Shown in pieces: positions 7,701-63,154 of a DNA stretch of 64,000 bases; position 1 is the first letter of the stretch, and every line of letters starts with the position of its first letter. Below the pieces are notes generated by a model that searched no databases, was not told the origin of the DNA, and saw only the letters and a program-made list of their open reading frames with translations. The position numbers were made by a program, and so were the translations under genes. Origin of the DNA: Pilibacter termitis (lineage in GTDB: Bacteria > Bacillota > Bacilli > Lactobacillales > Streptococcaceae). The DNA lies in assembly GCF_900167335.1 (NCBI RefSeq), contig NZ_FUXI01000007.1, positions 1 to 64,000 of the forward strand, given 5' to 3'.

Positions 7701-7935
7701 GAAAAGCTACGAGGGGCGTTTTGAAGTCTGCAACAGCGAACACTGTCGTTCATTTACTAGAAACGTAAGTTTCTAGCGACATTGAGAGCAGTTGCCAGAC
7801 TTCAGCCCCTCACAGCTAGACAAAGAAAAGCGAAGAGGGGCGATTTGAAGTCTGCAACAGCGAACCATGCCGTTTATTTACTTCAAGCGACATTGCGAGC
7901 AACCACCAGACTTCAGCACTTCACAGTTAGATCAA
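7701..7935 (+). repeat. family B hairpin repeats, two tandem copies
   Basis: Copies at 7701-7823 and 7825-7935. The first has matched stems: GAGGGGC/GCCCCTC outer, TGAAGTCTG/CAGACTTCA, TGTCG/CGACA, and AGAAAC/GTTTCT apical. The second is a hybrid: its 5' outer arm is the GAGGGGC type and its 3' arm the GCACTTC type, so the outer stem no longer pairs. Both lie between the M42 and DppA genes. The last bases run into the DppA ribosome site. Confidence 0.85.
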
Positions 7936-9666: not shown

Positions 9667-11022
9667 CTAAAACAACGTTGCAAGTGTCTCATAGACGAGA
9701 CGGATATTCAATAAGGTCAAGACAATGGTAATCACCCAACTTAAAACACTTACCCATTTACTATTGACAAATCTTCCCATGAGCTTTTTGTCGCTTGTAT
9801 AGATTGTCAATGGAATCATGGAAATAGGCAGAGCGATAGAAAGAAAGACTTGAGAATAAAGCAACAAACTTTCTACGGCACTTTCTTTTCCACCGTAAAG
9901 GATAACGCAGATGATAACTGGTGTTACAGCAAGTCCACGTGTTACCACACGACGTAGCCAGAGTGGCATTTTCAAGTGTAAAAATCCTTCCATAACGACT
10001 TCCCCAGTCAATGTGCCGGTAATCGTTGAATTTTGCCCACTAGCGAGTAAGGCAATGGCAAACAATACGGAGAGTACGGGACTAGCGATAGCTCCGACAA
10101 TTTTATCGTTTGAAAGGGCGTTGTATAAATCGACAAATCGCCCGAGAGAATCGCCATGACCAAAAAACATAGAGGCACCTAAAATCAAGAGTAAACTATT
10201 GATAACAAATGCACCAGCAAGTTGGATATTGCTATCAATTCCTGCAAAACGTACTGCACGAGCGACTTCTTCTTCATTTGTGTAATCAATTTTCCTCGTT
10301 TGTGAAATGGCGGAGTGTAAATAAAGATTATGTGGCATAACGGTTGCCCCGACAATTCCGAGTGCAACGGTTAGCATAGAGCCGTTTGTTACAACTTTTG
10401 TTTGTGGCACATATCCTTTTACAACACTTGCCCAATTGGGATTGCTGAGTAGCACTTCGTAGGCGAATACAATCAAAATGACTGCGATGAGTGTGACCAC
10501 AATTGCCTCCACTTTTCTAAAACCTAGTTTTTGTAAAAGTAATAAGAGCATGACGTCAAATACTGTAATAATCACACCAAGGAGCAATGGAATGTGAAAG
10601 AGTAACTCAAGAGCCACCGCACTTCCGATAATTTCGGCAATATCCGTTGCCATAATTGCCAATTCCGTTGTCACCCAGAGTGTTATACCGAGTTTTTTTC
10701 CTGTATGGTGGCGAGTGGCTTGTGCCAAGTCCATGCGAGTAACAATGCCAAGTTTTGCTGCCATATATTGCAATAGCATGGCAATAAGAGAACTTAGTAA
10801 AATAAAAGAAAGCAATGTATATTCAAATCGACTTCCACCTTCGATAGAGGTAATCCAGTTTCCGGGGTCCATATATCCAACTGCTACCAACGCACCGGGT
10901 CCTGAAAAGGCGAAAAGCGTCCGCCAAAAACCAGCATTTTTCGGCACATCAACGGTAGCATTTACTTCTTCTAAACTAGGACCGTTCGCATATTTCAACA
11001 TTTGTTCATGTTTTTCTTCCAT
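9667..11022 (-). CDS. mntH: Nramp-family Mn2+/H+ symporter
   Basis: About 451 residues from ATG 11022 (AGAAGGG upstream). A longer frame exists only because it reads through upstream repeats and should be ignored. Signature motifs are MDPGNW near residue 50, whose Asp and Asn coordinate the metal, and [11 protein letters not shown] near 220, which supplies the TM6 Met and His. About 11 membrane segments. It imports Mn2+ and possibly Fe2+ with protons. An EfaR/MntR-type palindrome overlaps its promoter (11124-11137), so repression by manganese-loaded regulator is likely. It is a monocistronic unit, divergent from a large family B array. Confidence 0.95.
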
Positions 11023-11086
11023 TTGAACCCTTCTTTCTTTATGTAAATTTACTGAATCATTTATTTTTAGAAAATCCCATAGTTGC

Positions 11087-11137
11087 ATTATATAAGAAAT
11101 TAAAGCAGTTGTAAACAAAAAAGTTAGGCGAACCGAA
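11087..11137 (-). promoter_or_regulatory. mntH promoter with DtxR/EfaR-like operator
   Basis: On the minus strand: -35 TTTACA (11115-11110), 17-bp spacer, -10 TATAAT (11092-11087). Directly upstream of the -35, at 11124-11137, is TTAGGCGAACCGAA, a near-palindrome fitting the TTAGG-N4-CCTAA form bound by EfaR and other DtxR-family metal regulators. Confidence 0.75.
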
Positions 11138-11161
11138 AAAATAAGTAACGGTTTCAAAGGG

Positions 11162-11645
11162 GAGAAAAACGAAGAGGGGTGTTTTGAAGTTTGCAACAGT
11201 GAGCCGTGTCGTTTATTTAATCGCAACGTTAGTTGCGATCGACACTGCGAACAGTTGCCAAACTTCAGCCCCTCGTAGTTAGACAAAGAAAAACGAAGAG
11301 GGGCGTTCAGGAGTTTGTCGCAGTGAGCCATACCATTTACTTGCCTGAAGCAGAGCTTCAGGTGGCATTGCGAACAGCGACCCAACTCCTGCCCCTCGCA
11401 GTTAGACAAAGAAAAGCTACGAGGGGCGTTTTGAAGTCTGCAACAGCGAACCATGTCGTTTATTTACTTGAAGCAAAGCTTCAAGCGACACTGCGAACAG
11501 TTGCCAAACTTCAGCCCCTCGTAGCTAGACAAAGAAAAACGAAGAGGGGCGTTCAGGAGTTTGTCGCAGTGAACTATGTCGTCCATTTACTTGCAACGTC
11601 AGTTTCAAGCGACATTGCGAACAGTTGCCAGTCATAGCTAGACAA
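11162..11645 (+). repeat. family B array, four tandem copies
   Basis: Copies at 11162-11285, 11288-11409, 11411-11532 and 11534-11645, alternating TGAAG-type and CAGGAG-type second stems. The third has a perfect 12-bp outer stem (GCTACGAGGGGC/GCCCCTCGTAGC). The fourth joins a CAGGAG-type 5' half to a truncated 3' half of the other type. The array fills most of the 800 bp between mntH and glmU. Confidence 0.9.
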
Positions 11646-14281: not shown

Positions 14282-14372
14282 GAAGAACCTCTTTTCTTTT
14301 ATTTTTATGTAAATTATTAACTTCAGTTTACCAAAGACATGGTAAAATAGACAATGAAAATAAATTTAATAA

Positions 14373-14527
14373 GGGCACCTCTAAAAACTCCGCTTAAGAC
14401 TAAATTAGCTAGTTTTTCGATTTTCGAGGAAATCGACGAAAGCTATGTGGTTCATAGGTTGAGGAGATTGACGAAGAAAATCGGAAAACTAGCAATTTAG
14501 GATAAGTGCGAGTTTTTAGAGGTGCCC
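14373..14527. mobile_element. family A element, full length (MITE-like)
   Basis: 155 bp with about 50-bp imperfect terminal inverted repeats starting GGGCACCTCTAAAAACTC, flanked by a 4-bp direct repeat ATAA on both sides. No coding capacity. The right-hand ATAA is immediately followed by the cutC ribosome site. The 20438-20715 element is an inverted copy of the same sequence with an insertion. Confidence 0.85.
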
Positions 14528-14541
14528 ATAAGGAGACAGTC

Positions 14542-20400: not shown

Positions 20401-20437
20401 TTTTTATAACCTCCTCATTCAGTTGCAAACAACTTTA

Positions 20438-20715
20438 GGGCACCTCTAAAAACTCGCACTTATCCTAAATTGCTAGTTTTCCGATTTTCTTCGTCAATCT
20501 CCTCAACCTTGTCTAGCTACGAGGGGCAGGAGTTTGGTCGCTGTTCGCAATGCTACTTGAAACTTCGTTTCAAGCAAGTAAATAGCATGGCTCACTACGA
20601 CAAACTCCTGAACACCCCTCTTAGCTTTTTGATGAACCACATAGCTTTCGTCGATTTCCTCGAAAACAAGAAAAACTAGCTAATTTAGTCTTAAGCGGAG
20701 TTTTTAGAGGTGCCC
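20438..20715. mobile_element. family A element carrying a nested family B copy
   Basis: Ends GGGCACC and GGTGCCC, flanked by the 4-bp direct repeat TTTA on both sides. Without the inserted 123 bp the element is 155 bp, the same length as the 14373 copy, to which it is inverted. The two ends pair over about 50 bp. Confidence 0.88.
20509..20631 (-). repeat. family B copy inserted in family A element
   Basis: Inverted CAGGAG-type copy with third stem ATGCTA/TAGCAT, a further compensated variant. The empty site is seen in the 14373 element as CCTCAACCTATGAACC. Here the same bases flank the insert, with one T lost or replaced and no target duplication. Confidence 0.9.
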
Positions 20716-20879
20716 TTTACATAATATCATCATTATATCACTCAACAGAAAAACTGTTTACCAAAAGTGTATCACACTTATAAAAAATTCTTTTCAGTCT
20801 AAGGAATGATTTTTCTATAAAAAATGATAAGATAGAAAATGTAGTATAAAAACAGAGAGTATAGAAAGCAGGGAAAACA

Positions 20880-21414: not shown

Positions 21415-21499
21415 AACTGAAGTTATTGTCGGATAAGAACACATAAGCGAGTGAGAAATATTGTCCTCATACGCTTTTATAGAGCTGAAACGGGATTTG
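21415..21499 (+). ncRNA. structured leader, copy 1
   Basis: About 85 bases nearly identical to 21993-22077. It contains GCGAGTGAG facing CTCATACGC, a stem with one A-A mismatch, around AAATATTGTC. Preserved in both copies with few substitutions, all outside or silent for the stem. Role unknown. Confidence 0.6.
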
Positions 21500-21639
21500 A
21501 CGACTCCTTTATGTAAACGTTTAAATGAAAATCGTTTTTTAAACGTGAATTTTGGTGTGTTTTAGCTGTTATGAATCTTCAGTAAAAAATTTGATCATTT
21601 TGAGTATCGTTGGATACAAGTATAGAAAAGAGTGAGACT

Positions 21640-21858
21640 ATGTTTCTTATATCTAGTGCAATTTGCTTTTCATTCTCCATGTTTCTTTTTTGTGGTATTG
21701 AAATCTCTAAAATTGTGATGAATGGAGAAGGAAATTTTCTTCATGAGGCAATGAAATATCCAATTATTTTGCTAGTGGTTAGCATTTTGTTACTGGTGAT
21801 TGAATTATGGACGAATGATTCAATCAAACAATTATTGAACCCGAAAATAAGAAAATGA
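21640..21858 (+). CDS. small membrane protein, unknown
   Basis: 72 residues from ATG 21640; an upstream TTG at 21610 is possible but has no ribosome site. Two hydrophobic segments (about residues 2-22 and 38-57) joined by a short charged loop, with a basic tail (Asn-Pro-Lys-Ile-Arg-Lys). It lies between two copies of the rpoB leader and is closed by a strong hairpin, so it is its own transcription unit. No family recognised. Confidence 0.6.
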   Translation: MFLISSAICFSFSMFLFCGIEISKIVMNGEGNFLHEAMKYPIILLVVSILLLVIELWTNDSIKQLLNPKIRK

Positions 21859-21920
21859 CAGTGTAACTCCCGATTAGCATACGTATTGTGTGTGCTAATT
21901 GGGAGTTACACTGCTATTTT
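21859..21920 (+). terminator. long hairpin terminator after the small membrane gene
   Basis: A stem of about 20 bp (CAGTGTAACTCCC arm pairing with GGGAGTTACACTG, extended by ATTAGCA/TGCTAAT with one wobble) followed by CTATTTTTT. Confidence 0.8.
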
Positions 21921-21959
21921 TTCCATTTCTTTTTGAGTATAATTTATTTGCCATTCCTC

Positions 21960-21988
21960 TTGACAATCAAGAAGTTATACGCTAAAAT
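21960..21988 (+). promoter_or_regulatory. rpoBC promoter
   Basis: TTGACA at 21960-21965, 17-bp spacer, TAAAAT at 21983-21988, followed by the second leader copy. About 235 bp of 5' UTR follow before rpoB. Confidence 0.8.
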
Positions 21989-21992
21989 GATA

Positions 21993-22077
21993 AATTGAAG
22001 TTATTGTCGGATAAAAACACATAAGCGAGTGAGAAATATTGTCCTCATACGCTTTCATAGAGCTGAAACGGAATTTG
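21993..22077 (+). ncRNA. structured leader, copy 2 (rpoB 5' UTR)
   Basis: Near-identical to 21415-21499, with the same stem. Likely original position is upstream of rpoB; may take part in rpoBC control (inference). Confidence 0.6.
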
Positions 22078-22227
22078 GCGGCAGTCAATCTCTGTTTAAG
22101 CTTTTTTTGTGCCTAAAAATCAGTTAAAATGTGATATTTAACGAAAAAGTAAACAAAATGTAATATTTGTAATATCGCAATTGGCTGTTTCCGCAATGAA
22201 AAAATTATAGAACAAGAGGTGTTGAAC

Positions 22228-29000: not shown

Positions 29001-29690
29001 ACTCGTACAAAACGTGTAACCGTGAAAGGAAATACTGGCGAAGAAGAATATACAGTGCCTTACACTGCACGCATGAAAGTTTCTCAAGGCGACAGTATTC
29101 ATCGTGGAGATGCCTTAACAGAAGGTTCTATCGAACCAAAACACTTGCTTTCTATTCGTGATGCTCTAACCGTTGAACAATATCTTCTTGCCGAAGTGCA
29201 AAAAGTTTACCGTTCGCAAGGGGTGGAAATCGGAGATAAGCACGTTGAGGTAATGGTACGTCAAATGTTGCGTAAAGTGCGTGTCATGGATCCGGGAGAT
29301 ACGGATATTTTACCGGGAACACTTTTGGATATTCAAGATTTCAAAGACTCAAACTACGAAACCTTGATGAATGGTGGCACACCAGCAACAGCTCGTCCTG
29401 TTCTTCTAGGAATTACGAAAGCAAGTTTGGAAACAAATTCATTCTTGTCAGCTGCCTCATTCCAAGAAACAACACGTGTCTTGACAGATGCCTCTATTCG
29501 TGGCAAAAAAGACCCACTTCTTGGACTCAAAGAAAATGTTATCATCGGGAAAATCATTCCTGCTGGTACAGGTATGGCTCGCTATCGCAACATGGAGCCA
29601 AAAGACGAAGTGGCAACTGTCAGTGAAAATGTGTACTCAATCGCAGACATTGAAAAACAACTTGCAGCCGAGGACTCAGAAGAAGAGTAG
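26037..29690 (+). CDS. rpoC: RNA polymerase subunit beta-prime
   Basis: 1217 residues from TTG 26037 with GGAGGG six bases upstream. The N-terminal zinc site is [20 protein letters not shown] near 60-80. The catalytic NADFDGDQM with three Mg-binding Asp residues lies near 450. A second zinc cluster, with [13 protein letters not shown], lies near 895-910. The bridge helix and trigger-loop region are intact. Co-transcribed with rpoB across a 179-bp spacer that contains a hairpin. Family B repeats begin four bases after the stop codon. Confidence 0.98.
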
Positions 29691-29694
29691 GAAA

Positions 29695-29894
29695 GAAAAG
29701 CGAGCGGGGCGTTCAGGAGTTTGCGACATTGTGAACAGTTGCCAAACTTCAGCCCCGTACAGCTAGACAATAGAAAAGCAAAGAGGGGCGTTCATGGTTT
29801 TGTCGCAGAGAGCCATGCCATTTACTTGCCTGAAGCAGAGCTTCAGGTGGCATTGCGAACAGCGACCAAAACCATGCCCCTCGTAGCTAGACAA
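29695..29894 (+). repeat. family B copies, one collapsed and one intact
   Basis: 29695-29770 joins the 5' arm of a CAGGAG-type copy directly to the 3' arm of a TGAAG-type copy, losing the inner two stems. 29773-29894 is complete with second stem CATGGTTTTGTCGC against GCGAC..AAACCATG, a separately compensated variant. The array lies between rpoC and a convergent regulator gene and may act as terminator. Confidence 0.85.
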
Positions 29895-44921: not shown

Positions 44922-44998
44922 AAAGGAGAACTCTAAAAAATCCGTTTAAGCCAAAACTAACAATTCTGGATAATCTTGAATTTTTAGAGTTACCCTTA
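44922..44998. repeat. family A short hairpin element
   Basis: Left end GGAGAACTCTAAAAAATCC and right end GAATTTTTAGAGTTACCC facing each other over a short centre, 77 bp, in the gap after the nucleoside hydrolase gene. Confidence 0.65.
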
Positions 44999-48424: not shown

Positions 48425-48853
48425 GAAAAGCGAAGAGGGGCGTTTTGAAGTTTGCAACAGTGAGCCACAGCATTTACTTGCTGGAAACGCAGTTTCCAGT
48501 GCTGTTGTGAACAGTTGCCAAACTTCAGCCCCTCGTAGCTAGACAAAGAAAAGCGGAGAGGGGCGGTCAGGAGATTGTCGCAGAGAGCCATGCCATTTAC
48601 TTGCCTGAAGCAGAGCTTCAGGTGGCATTGCGAACAGCGACCAAGCCCCTGCCCCTCGCAGCTAGACAAAGAAAAGCGAAATGGTGCGTTTTGGAGTTTG
48701 TAACAGTGAACACTGTCGTTTATTTACTGCTACACTTCGTTTCGCATACAGTCTTTCTAAGAATCAAAGATTCTTGAAAGACTAGCATTGAAGCGTTAGC
48801 TTCAAGCGACATTGTGAACAGTTGCCAAACTCCAGCACCATGCAGCTAGACAA
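48425..48853 (+). repeat. family B array of three in the 5' UTR of the BceA-like gene
   Basis: 48425-48546 (TGAAG type, third stem ACAGCA/TGCTGT), 48548-48669 (CAGGAG type), and 48671-48853 (outer stem ATGGTGC/GCACCAT, with an extended apical module containing AGTCTTTC/GAAAGACT). All lie between the -10 at 48414 and ATG 48873. Confidence 0.9.
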
Positions 48854-52127: not shown

Positions 52128-52173
52128 TTGTGTATAAATAGGAAATAGAGTTTCTTAATAAGAAACGAAAAGG

Positions 52174-52478
52174 AAAGCGGAGAAGTGCGTTTTGAAGTCT
52201 GTGGCAGTGAACCATGCCGTTTACTTGCTCGAAACTTAGTTTCGAGTGGCATTGTGAACAGCCACCAGACTTCAGCACTTCGTAGCTAGACAAAAGAAAA
52301 GCGAAATGGTGCGTTTTGGAGTTTGCAACAGTGAACACTGTCGTTTATTTACTGCTACACTTCGTTTCGCATACAGTCTTTCTAAGAATCAAAGATTCTT
52401 GAAAGACTAGCATTGAAGCGTTAGCTTCAAGCGGCATTGTGAACAGTTGCCAAACTCCAGCACCATGTAGCTAGACAA
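52174..52478 (+). repeat. family B pair in the eda leader
   Basis: 52174-52296 has outer stem GAAGTGC/GCACTTC and second stem TGAAGTCTGTGGC/GCCAC..CAGACTTCA. 52299-52478 has outer stem ATGGTGC/GCACCAT and the long apical module. Both stems are compensated relative to other copies. Confidence 0.9.
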
Positions 52479-54395: not shown

Positions 54396-54471
54396 AAAAA
54401 ATGCTAAGAGGGGTGTTCGGGAGTTGCCGTTGCGAACCGTTGCCCAACTCCTGCACTTCGTAGCTAGCCAA
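54396..54471 (+). repeat. family B, truncated copy
   Basis: Outer arms only: AAGAGGGGTGTTCGGGAGTTG and CCCAACTCCTGCACTTCGTAGC, with the inner stems deleted. It lies in the leader of the wall-protein gene. Confidence 0.75.
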
Positions 54472-59761: not shown

Positions 59762-60188
59762 GAAAAGCGAAGAAGTGCGTTTTGAAGTCTGTGGCAGTGA
59801 GCTACGTCGTTTATTCACTTGAAACTTTAGTTTCAAGCGACGTTGCGAACAGCCACCAGACTTCAGCACTTCGTAGCTAGACAAAGAAAAGCGATCGGTG
59901 CGGTTAGGGGATTGTCGCAGTGAGCAATGCCATTTACTTGCCTGAAGCAGAGCTTCAGGTGGTATTGTGAACAGCGACCAAGCCCCTGCCCCTCGTAGCT
60001 AGACACAGAAAAGCGAAGAAGTGCGTTTTGAAGTCTGTGGCAGTGAGCTACGTCGTTTATTTACTACTACACTTCGTTTCGCATACAGTCTTTCTAAGAA
60101 TCAAAGATTCTTGAAAGACTAGCATTGAAACGAAGTTTCAATTGACGTTGCGAACAGCCACCAGACTTCAGCATTTCGTGTTAGATAA
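59762..60188 (+). repeat. family B array of three before the cysteine desulfurase gene
   Basis: 59762-59884 (GAAGTGC outer, TGTGGC/GCCAC), 59886-60005 (CAGGAG-like with degenerate outer stem), and 60008-60188 (GAAGTGC type with long apical module). The third ends in the ribosome site region of the next gene. Confidence 0.88.
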
Positions 60189-61627: not shown

Positions 61628-62848
61628 ATGAAATACACCGAAATAATGGTTCGCTACGGCGAGCTTTCGACAAAAGGAAAGAATCGCAAGAGGTTTATTC
61701 AGCAGTTGGCGAAAAATATTCGTCTGGCATTGGTGGATTTTCCTAAAATTAAAATTATTGCAGAGCGGGATCGGACGCATTTGTTGCTAAATGGTGAGGA
61801 TAGCGATTTGTTGATTCCTGAGTTGAAAAAAGTGTTTGGTATACAAAGTTTTTCGCCAGTTGTGAGAGTGGAGAAAGATTTGGAAGAGATGAAAAAAATG
61901 GCGGTGAGTATTGTCCGTGAGCAATTTTTTGAGGGCATGACGTTTAAAATAACAAGTAAACGTAGTGACCATGACTTTGAACTTGATACAACAGGGTTAA
62001 ATCAATTTCTTGGAAGTGCAGTATTTAACAAAGTCGAAGGTATTCAGGCGAAAATGAAGAAACCCGACTTAGATTTACGTGTGGAAGTCCGCATGGATGC
62101 TGTTTATTTTAGTTTTGAAACAATCAAAGGTGCAGGAGGACTTCCTGTTGCAACGAGTGGTCGTGGAATGTTAATGCTCTCTGGTGGAATAGATTCTCCC
62201 GTGGCAGGTTATTTGGCAATGAAACGTGGGGTAGAACTTGAAATGGTGCATTTTGCCTCTCCGCCGTACACTTCAGCAGGAGCATTGCAAAAGGCAAAAG
62301 ATTTAACGCAAAAACTCACTGTTTTCGGTGGCAATATCCAGTTTATCGAAGTGCCGTTTACGGAAATTCAAGAGGAAATTAAAGCAAAAGCACCTGAGGC
62401 GTATTTGATGACCATTACACGTCGAATGATGATGAGATTGACCGATAAAATCCGCCAAATGCGTAAGGGATACGTGATTATCAACGGTGAGTCGCTTGGT
62501 CAAGTGGCAAGTCAAACGCTGGAGAGTATGCAGGCAATCAACGATGTGACAACGACACCCGTTATTCGTCCTGTTGTTACAATGGATAAACTTGAAATTA
62601 TTGAGCTAAGCCAAAAAATTGATACTTTTGAAATTTCGATTCAACCTTTTGAGGATTGTTGCACGATTTTTTCTCCAGCCAGCCCGAAAACTCGTCCAAA
62701 TTTGGAACTTACAAGAGAATATGAGGCACGCCTTGACATTGAGGGCTTGATAGAGAGAGCAATCGCAGGACTAAAAATTTCCGAAATCACCCCACTCGGC
62801 GAAGTAGGAAACGTGCGACTAGAAGATGAATTTGAGGATTTATTATAA
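61628..62848 (+). CDS. thiI: tRNA 4-thiouridine synthase ThiI
   Basis: 406 residues. N-terminal ferredoxin-like and THUMP domains (about 1-165) bind tRNA. A PP-loop ATPase follows with [12 protein letters not shown] near 182, and the C-terminal DCCTIFSP segment near 345 carries the conserved cysteine of Gram-positive ThiI. There is no rhodanese domain, as usual in Firmicutes. Adenylates U8 in tRNA and, with the cysteine desulfurase upstream, makes s4U8; may also feed thiazole synthesis. AGAGG before ATG 61628. Family B repeat starts immediately after the stop. Confidence 0.96.
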
Positions 62849-63154
62849 GAAAAGCTACGAGGGGCGTTCTGGAGTTTGTCGCAGTAAGCCATGCCATTTA
62901 CTTGCTTGAAGCAGAGCTTCAAGTGGCATTGCGAACAGCGACCAAAGTCCAGCCCCTCGTAGCTAGACACAGAAAAGCGAAGAAGTGCGTTTTGAAGTCT
63001 GTGGCAGTGAGTCACGTCGTTTATTTACTGCTATACTTCGTTTCGCATACAGTCTTTCTAAGAATCAAAGATTCTTGAAAGACTAGCATTGAAACTTTAG
63101 TTTCAAGCGACGTTGCGAACAGCCACCAGACTTTAGCACTTCGTAGCTAGACAA
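62849..63154 (+). repeat. family B pair after thiI
   Basis: 62849-62970 (outer GAGGGGC, second stem CTGGAGTTTGTCGC against GCGAC..AGTCCAG) begins at the base after the thiI stop. 62972-63154 is the GAAGTGC type with the long apical module. Confidence 0.9.

Follow-up and report, generated by a model that had tools for sequence, protein, structure and literature searches.

The 64,000-nucleotide stretch of Pilibacter termitis DNA analysed here (the window) holds two closely related elements that differ by one hairpin. The shorter, of 155 bp, lies at 14373-14527 on the minus strand in the order C-A, between ATAA flanks at 14369-14372 and 14528-14531. The longer lies at 20438-20715. An earlier note on this DNA had read the pair as a hairpin of one repeat family, B, inserted into a resident element of another, A, so that B would have moved after A. 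The question is whether such a pair can date an insertion.

The basic relation between the two elements is as the earlier note had described it: 20438-20715 is the reverse complement of the B-less element plus a hairpin, with a framework match of 153/155. The target duplication TTTA (20434-20437 and 20716-20719) encloses three modules on the plus strand. Module A (72 bp, 20438-20509) starts with the terminal inverted repeat GGGCACCTCTAAAAACT, module B (20510-20631) is a 122-bp hairpin running from TGTCTAGC to AGCTTTTTG with a derived 3′ junction, and module C (84 bp, the usual length plus 1, 20632-20715) has AGTTTTTAGAGGTGCCC at its end. The figure of 123 bp given before for the added piece is correct as the total length difference, but the insert at the junction measures 122 bp; the 123rd base is a 1-nt indel within module C (AAAACAAG versus AAAATCG). 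The B-less form reads CCTCAACCT^ATGAACC, and the insert stands directly 3′ of CCTCAACCT. The added piece is indeed one B hairpin, folding at -52.7 kcal/mol (z = -7.0; 0 of 200 shuffles as good). The window also contains a minimal element of 71 bp with the same, imperfect, terminal repeats (44925-44995).

The pair had further been taken to give the exact ends of B. For this purpose the window copy is a poor guide: it carries the variant junction CTTTTTG-ATGAACC, where most filled copies have CTTTTCT-ATGAACC, and B's ends are therefore clearer from the family. Aligning many filled and empty elements, as the earlier note had proposed, places them mostly as CTCCTCAACC-T-[TGTCTAGC...GCTTTTC]-T-ATGAACC. 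With a single T on either side of B, a hidden duplication could be 1 bp at most.

Family A itself is abundant. Across the whole genome (2.79 Mb, 59 contigs), GGGCACCTCTAAAAACT has 150 forward and 147 reverse matches with up to 2 mismatches, compared to 1 and 0 for the reversed control, and from these ends we estimate about 150 elements. Their lengths include 54, 66, 71, 108, 128, 155, 180, 233, 277-279, 339, 402 bp and more, up to 585 bp. They hold 0, 1, 2 or more B units between A and C, and in the stretches examined (54 to 585 bp) no transposase lies between the ends. The loci studied are those that matched the two window elements best at the DNA level, a non-random choice. Within this set, 48 of 56 oriented elements have an exact 4-bp target duplication, most commonly ATAT, TTAA, TTTA or ATAA, with TTAA second (12/48). 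Unrelated left and right ends agree in 15.6% of pairings, because all ends are A/T-rich. The duplication is found at similar rates without B (23/28) and with B (25/28); it is therefore carried by whole composites. B, by contrast, shows no target duplication beyond the possible single T, a difference from family A that had been noticed before.

A search of 57 relatives and of plasmids and phages found nothing related to the whole element at the DNA level, and a second genome of the genus (59% complete) gave no DNA match. Neither B nor A-C matched any Rfam 15 covariance model, whether in the window or in a further locus (L001).

The ends of family A point to a candidate mover. A pattern search for the terminal repeat gave hits in 7 of 395 genomes of the order. 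At one of these loci (L224, another genus of the same family), the repeat bounds an intact 1.39-kb element with TTAA on both sides, which encodes a 334-aa transposase of the IS5 family (NF033581, E = 2e-79; DUF772 and DDE_Tnp_1). Its best named plasmid relatives are annotated as IS1194 in Lactococcus. On a Lactococcus lactis plasmid (NZ_CP129293.1, L240), IS1194 reads TTAA-GGGCACCTCTAAAAAC...TTATTAGAGGTGCCC-TTAA, and 16 of 16 bases of GGGCACCTCTAAAAAC are present at the left end in both L224 and L240, a match by terminal repeat. The length of the target duplication, 4 bp, also agrees between family A and the IS1194-type elements, with TTAA at both L224 and L240. Given these shared ends and duplications, family A is best read as a MITE of IS1194-type IS5-family elements, and a transposase of this kind most likely mobilised it in trans. 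The likeness to IS1194 and its IS5-family relatives consists of the terminal repeat GGGCACCTCTAAAAAC and the 4-bp TTAA duplication. The window element differs in lacking a transposase, and apart from the ends it showed no resemblance to the IS.

An IS1194-type transposase was not found in the genome itself, in a search of the 59-contig assembly run without a positive control, so the mover is assigned from relatives. Similarly, none of 17 stretches of this genome around isolated ends contained an autonomous element bounded by the A repeat, a PF01609 search of the genome gave one unrelated IS5-family relic only, and no IS1182-type transposase (PF13751) was found in it. This IS5-family relic, decayed and lying among short A-repeat copies (L162:1117-1972), was first taken as the source, then rejected because its own ends are of the AGAACCTGTTCTC... 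/ AGAACCTG type, like those of its homologues in relatives. The titles and abstracts of the IS1194 literature contained nothing on MITEs. In genome G425, an IS1194-type transposase gene contains a 99-bp element (L226:1420-1518) with the terminal repeats of family A, so such MITEs are present in another genus too.

Hairpin B has a life of its own. It is a 121-122-nt hairpin that folds alone and covaries. In 47 diverse B units a 40-pair structure is formed in 91.1% of cells, and 30 of the 40 pairs have changes on both sides (268 such cells). None of 500 shuffles reached the observed pairing, number of double changes or covariation score, although kinship among B units inflates such tests. Sliding the partner by 1 to 3 columns lowers pairing to 34-45%. 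The effect is nevertheless large, and the B alignment plainly contains discrete paired alternatives (GGGGC/GCCCC, AGTGC/GCACT and others); some units combine two arms of different types (L081:1584-1705 and L072:374-494). A covariance model finds at least 150 B copies genome-wide, all those listed at E < 1e-28. An unselected 264-kb sample (the window and ten 20-kb stretches) contains 54 hits above 40 bits, and scaling up from this sample gives an estimate of about 570 copies in the genome. All but one of the 54 lie outside A-C, single or in tandem at a spacing of about 123 bp; some B units are extended at the apex by about 61 bp. These data support A and B as two different repeat families.

The window illustrates this independence. 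Standalone B clusters in the sample are intergenic, often with a stop codon or ribosome-binding site only a few bases away; those of the window are on the minus strand. Two B units without A or C lie between codirectional genes at 7701-7933 and abut the ribosome-binding site of the next gene. A four-unit array, also without A or C and with the spacing of about 123 bp, lies at 11164-11644, and two units at 29695-29893 directly follow the 3′ end of an rpoC-like gene (stop at 29690). Arrays of three units are found at 48425-48852, where the last unit has the apical insert of about 61 bp, and at 59762-60187, where one unit has such an insert. Pairs of units occupy 52172-52477 (one with an apical insert) and 62849-63153, which starts 1 bp past the stop codon of the gene ending at 62848. 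A truncated unit lies at 54398-54470. Between codirectional genes, 11 B clusters are antisense to transcription and 1 is sense. On the sense strand, B finishes with a G+C stem and then TTTTCTTT, so this bias is possibly due to avoidance of termination, as far as such a small sample suggests.

We also observed that reading frames are open through the tandem array on both strands, at 9667-11454 (-) and 11233-11637 (+), because of the spacing of about 123 bp (3 x 41). In the first frame, the array part probably lengthens an NRAMP-type transporter gene artificially at the N-terminal end.

B-like hairpins extend beyond this genome. A neighbouring 407-aa protein groups beside Lactococcus (tree support 83). 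Among 97 relatives searched with the covariance model, 4, belonging to three genera of the same family, have weak but clear B-like hairpins: at least 6 in G018, and others in G019, G026 and G069. In nine of these remote hairpins pairing reaches 85.4%, and 23 of 29 pairs have changes on both sides, in an alignment fitted to the model; they keep the sequence around AACTTCGTT...AGTAAATAAAC. Named loci of Enterococcus, Lactococcus, Vagococcus and allied bacteria, 462 kb in all, gave no B-like hit below E = 0.69. Among the remote hairpins, the RNase P RNA gene of G018 is one site: it (L247:564-1070, minus strand) has a loop of 140 nt compared to 8 in the Rfam consensus, which holds a B-like hairpin. 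Others lie in a 16S-23S spacer of G069, between a tRNA and the 23S gene (L254:607-727, minus strand), and between the genes for ribosomal proteins S8 and L6, recognised by sequence (L248). In A-B-C elements the insertion point of B, too, lies next to the tip of the A-C foldback. This suggests, without proving it, that B-like hairpins settle at hairpin tips. Tentatively, and with the odds rather against it, B could represent a so far undescribed family of structured, mobile hairpins shared by several genera, probably of the Streptococcaceae, which would insert at hairpin tips (the MITE foldback, a variable helix of RNase P RNA) without target duplication, by a non-DDE route, and which would have reached hundreds of copies here.

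Could B be primarily a structured RNA with a function, or a DNA-binding site, that is under selection wherever it occurs and only incidentally present in A-C? The doubly changed pairs and the shuffle result speak for it, together with the structure kept in the remote copies from three other genera and the orientation bias between codirectional genes. Nonetheless, we regard this as unlikely. Copying of the hairpin or pairwise exchange of stems also yields compensated arms, and sequences related by a tree can inflate the shuffle test. The extreme and uneven copy number, the tandem arrays and the lack of a common gene context are those of a repeat, and the presence of B among relatives is patchy.

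The part of the earlier reading that concerns two separate families, with B mostly found without A, is thus upheld. A jump of B at this locus, and the date derived from it, are not supported. The window B, including its private CTTTTTG junction, is identical at 122 of 122 positions in two other elements, L002 (TTAA duplication) and L005 (ATAT duplication). Their frameworks match that of the window element at 152/155 in L002 and only 141/155 in L005, a divergence of 9%. The same hairpin with the same private junction is present at three loci, one of them in a strongly diverged framework, which speaks against reading one dated move from the pair. In addition, all 28 B-bearing elements have B at the same place, 25 of them with their own duplication around the whole composite, and the B junction is alike in the B-bearing elements examined, private variants aside.

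Conversely, one framework can go with different contents. L012 (without B), L002 and L050 have identical frameworks (155/155), yet the B units of L002 and L050 match at only 99/122. Across 20 elements with one B each, the distance between frameworks does not track the distance between their B units (Mantel r = 0.016, p = 0.40). On the framework tree, elements with and without B are interspersed, and three states need 17 changes against a minimum of 2. With only 155 framework columns much of the tree lacks resolution; its well-supported branches alone force 5 changes for 'no B' and 7 for 'one B'. One genome thus contains a mixture of elements that have the hairpin, lack it or have another one, which suggests that B is an exchanged module rather than one datable insertion.

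An in-place jump of a mobile B into an A element resident at 20438, with the pair dating B after A, would draw on the independence of B (53 of the 54 sampled copies), on the lack of a duplication at its ends beyond the possible single T and on the B-less form as an exact empty counterpart. It would have to account for the recurrence of the window B with its private junction, for the single insertion point common to all B-bearing copies and for the lack of correlation between B type and framework. We consider it quite unlikely. Mixed combinations would also result if B had entered several times independently at exactly the same point. The reverse order, in which the long form is ancestral and composites gave rise to the 155-bp form by losing B precisely, fits the identical frameworks with and without B and the clearly variable B copy number. 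We consider it very unlikely, since B has no flanking direct repeat that would permit exact loss, and B-less copies are numerous, with a mean distance of 0.039 among themselves compared to 0.068 for filled ones in this sample chosen by similarity. Which form is older, with or without B, cannot be read from the pair. Relatives found via the neighbouring gene belong to other genera and are too distant for an intergenic alignment.

The simplest account of these sequences is that B is a module that moved with, or was exchanged between, copies of A. Accordingly, we propose a modular non-autonomous transposon of the form A-(B)n-C, moved by an IS1194-type transposase and exchanging B by recombination, to which we assign a probability of roughly 75%. 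A and C would be the two ends of a MITE with IS1194-type terminal repeats and a 4-bp target duplication, and the transposase would have moved this A-C element in trans. B would be a distinct hairpin repeat, commoner alone, placed at a fixed mid-point of the A-C foldback. Composites holding B would have transposed as whole units, which fits the duplication flanking the entire composite. Homologous recombination between A-C copies, with A and C as arms, would add, remove, replace or multiply B, and recombination between B units probably also changed B content, as the shuffled combinations and chimeric B units of this one assembly suggest. At 20438, either the arrival of a whole composite or the conversion of an element is likely, and no B jump need be assumed there.

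This build is that of the BOX elements of S. pneumoniae, which have the form boxA-(boxB)n-boxC; two BOX-type families are found in S. suis (PMC3049150). In S. suis, the same boxB occurs between different end pairs and there are extra boxD modules; large BOX-type elements carry open frames (PMC3049150). The number of boxB units in pneumococcus has been proposed to change by recombination and slippage (PMC3049150), in agreement with module exchange here. The likeness claimed here is one of build: two fixed ends with none, one or several B units between them, terminal inverted repeats together with target duplications, strong hairpins, a B that folds alone and more than 100 copies. The modules differ in size, at 72, 122 and 83 bp here compared to about 59, 45 and 50 for pneumococcal boxA, boxB and boxC. 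The mover proposed in pneumococcus is ISSpn2, whereas here it would be of the IS1194 type. Finally, nearly all B units lie outside A-C here, while the pneumococcal genome has 17 lone modules against 125 BOX elements.

Other systems share some of these features. A MITE of Porphyromonas gingivalis (PMC4596501) also holds a repeat array, but that array is a minisatellite and ours is a large independent hairpin repeat. REP and BIME palindromes resemble B as intergenic hairpins that occur alone or clustered in high copy number. B is, however, three to five times longer, and no Y1 (TnpA_REP/RAYT-type) transposase was found in this genome with PF01797, a search that was positive in 5 control genomes.

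The earlier observation is sound, but its interpretation was too precise. Most of the system is what one expects of MITEs in bacteria; the link to IS1194, the exchange of modules and the wide family of B hairpins are of real, if moderate, interest. An orphan MITE family is tied to a named insertion sequence by its ends and target duplication. In one genome, the internal module of a BOX-like element is also an independent and far commoner repeat, which offers a concrete system for how boxB-like modules enter, leave and multiply. It also carries a warning that one filled and one empty copy are an unsafe basis for dating insertions.

Other repeats and structured RNAs occur in the window. A tRNA cluster with duplicated blocks, 86 to 100% identical, occupies 586-1871, and an S-box (SAM) riboswitch follows it at 1851-1935. 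Upstream of an rpoB-like gene, at 21415-22080, lies an 88-bp direct repeat (94%) whose copies are 578 bp apart.
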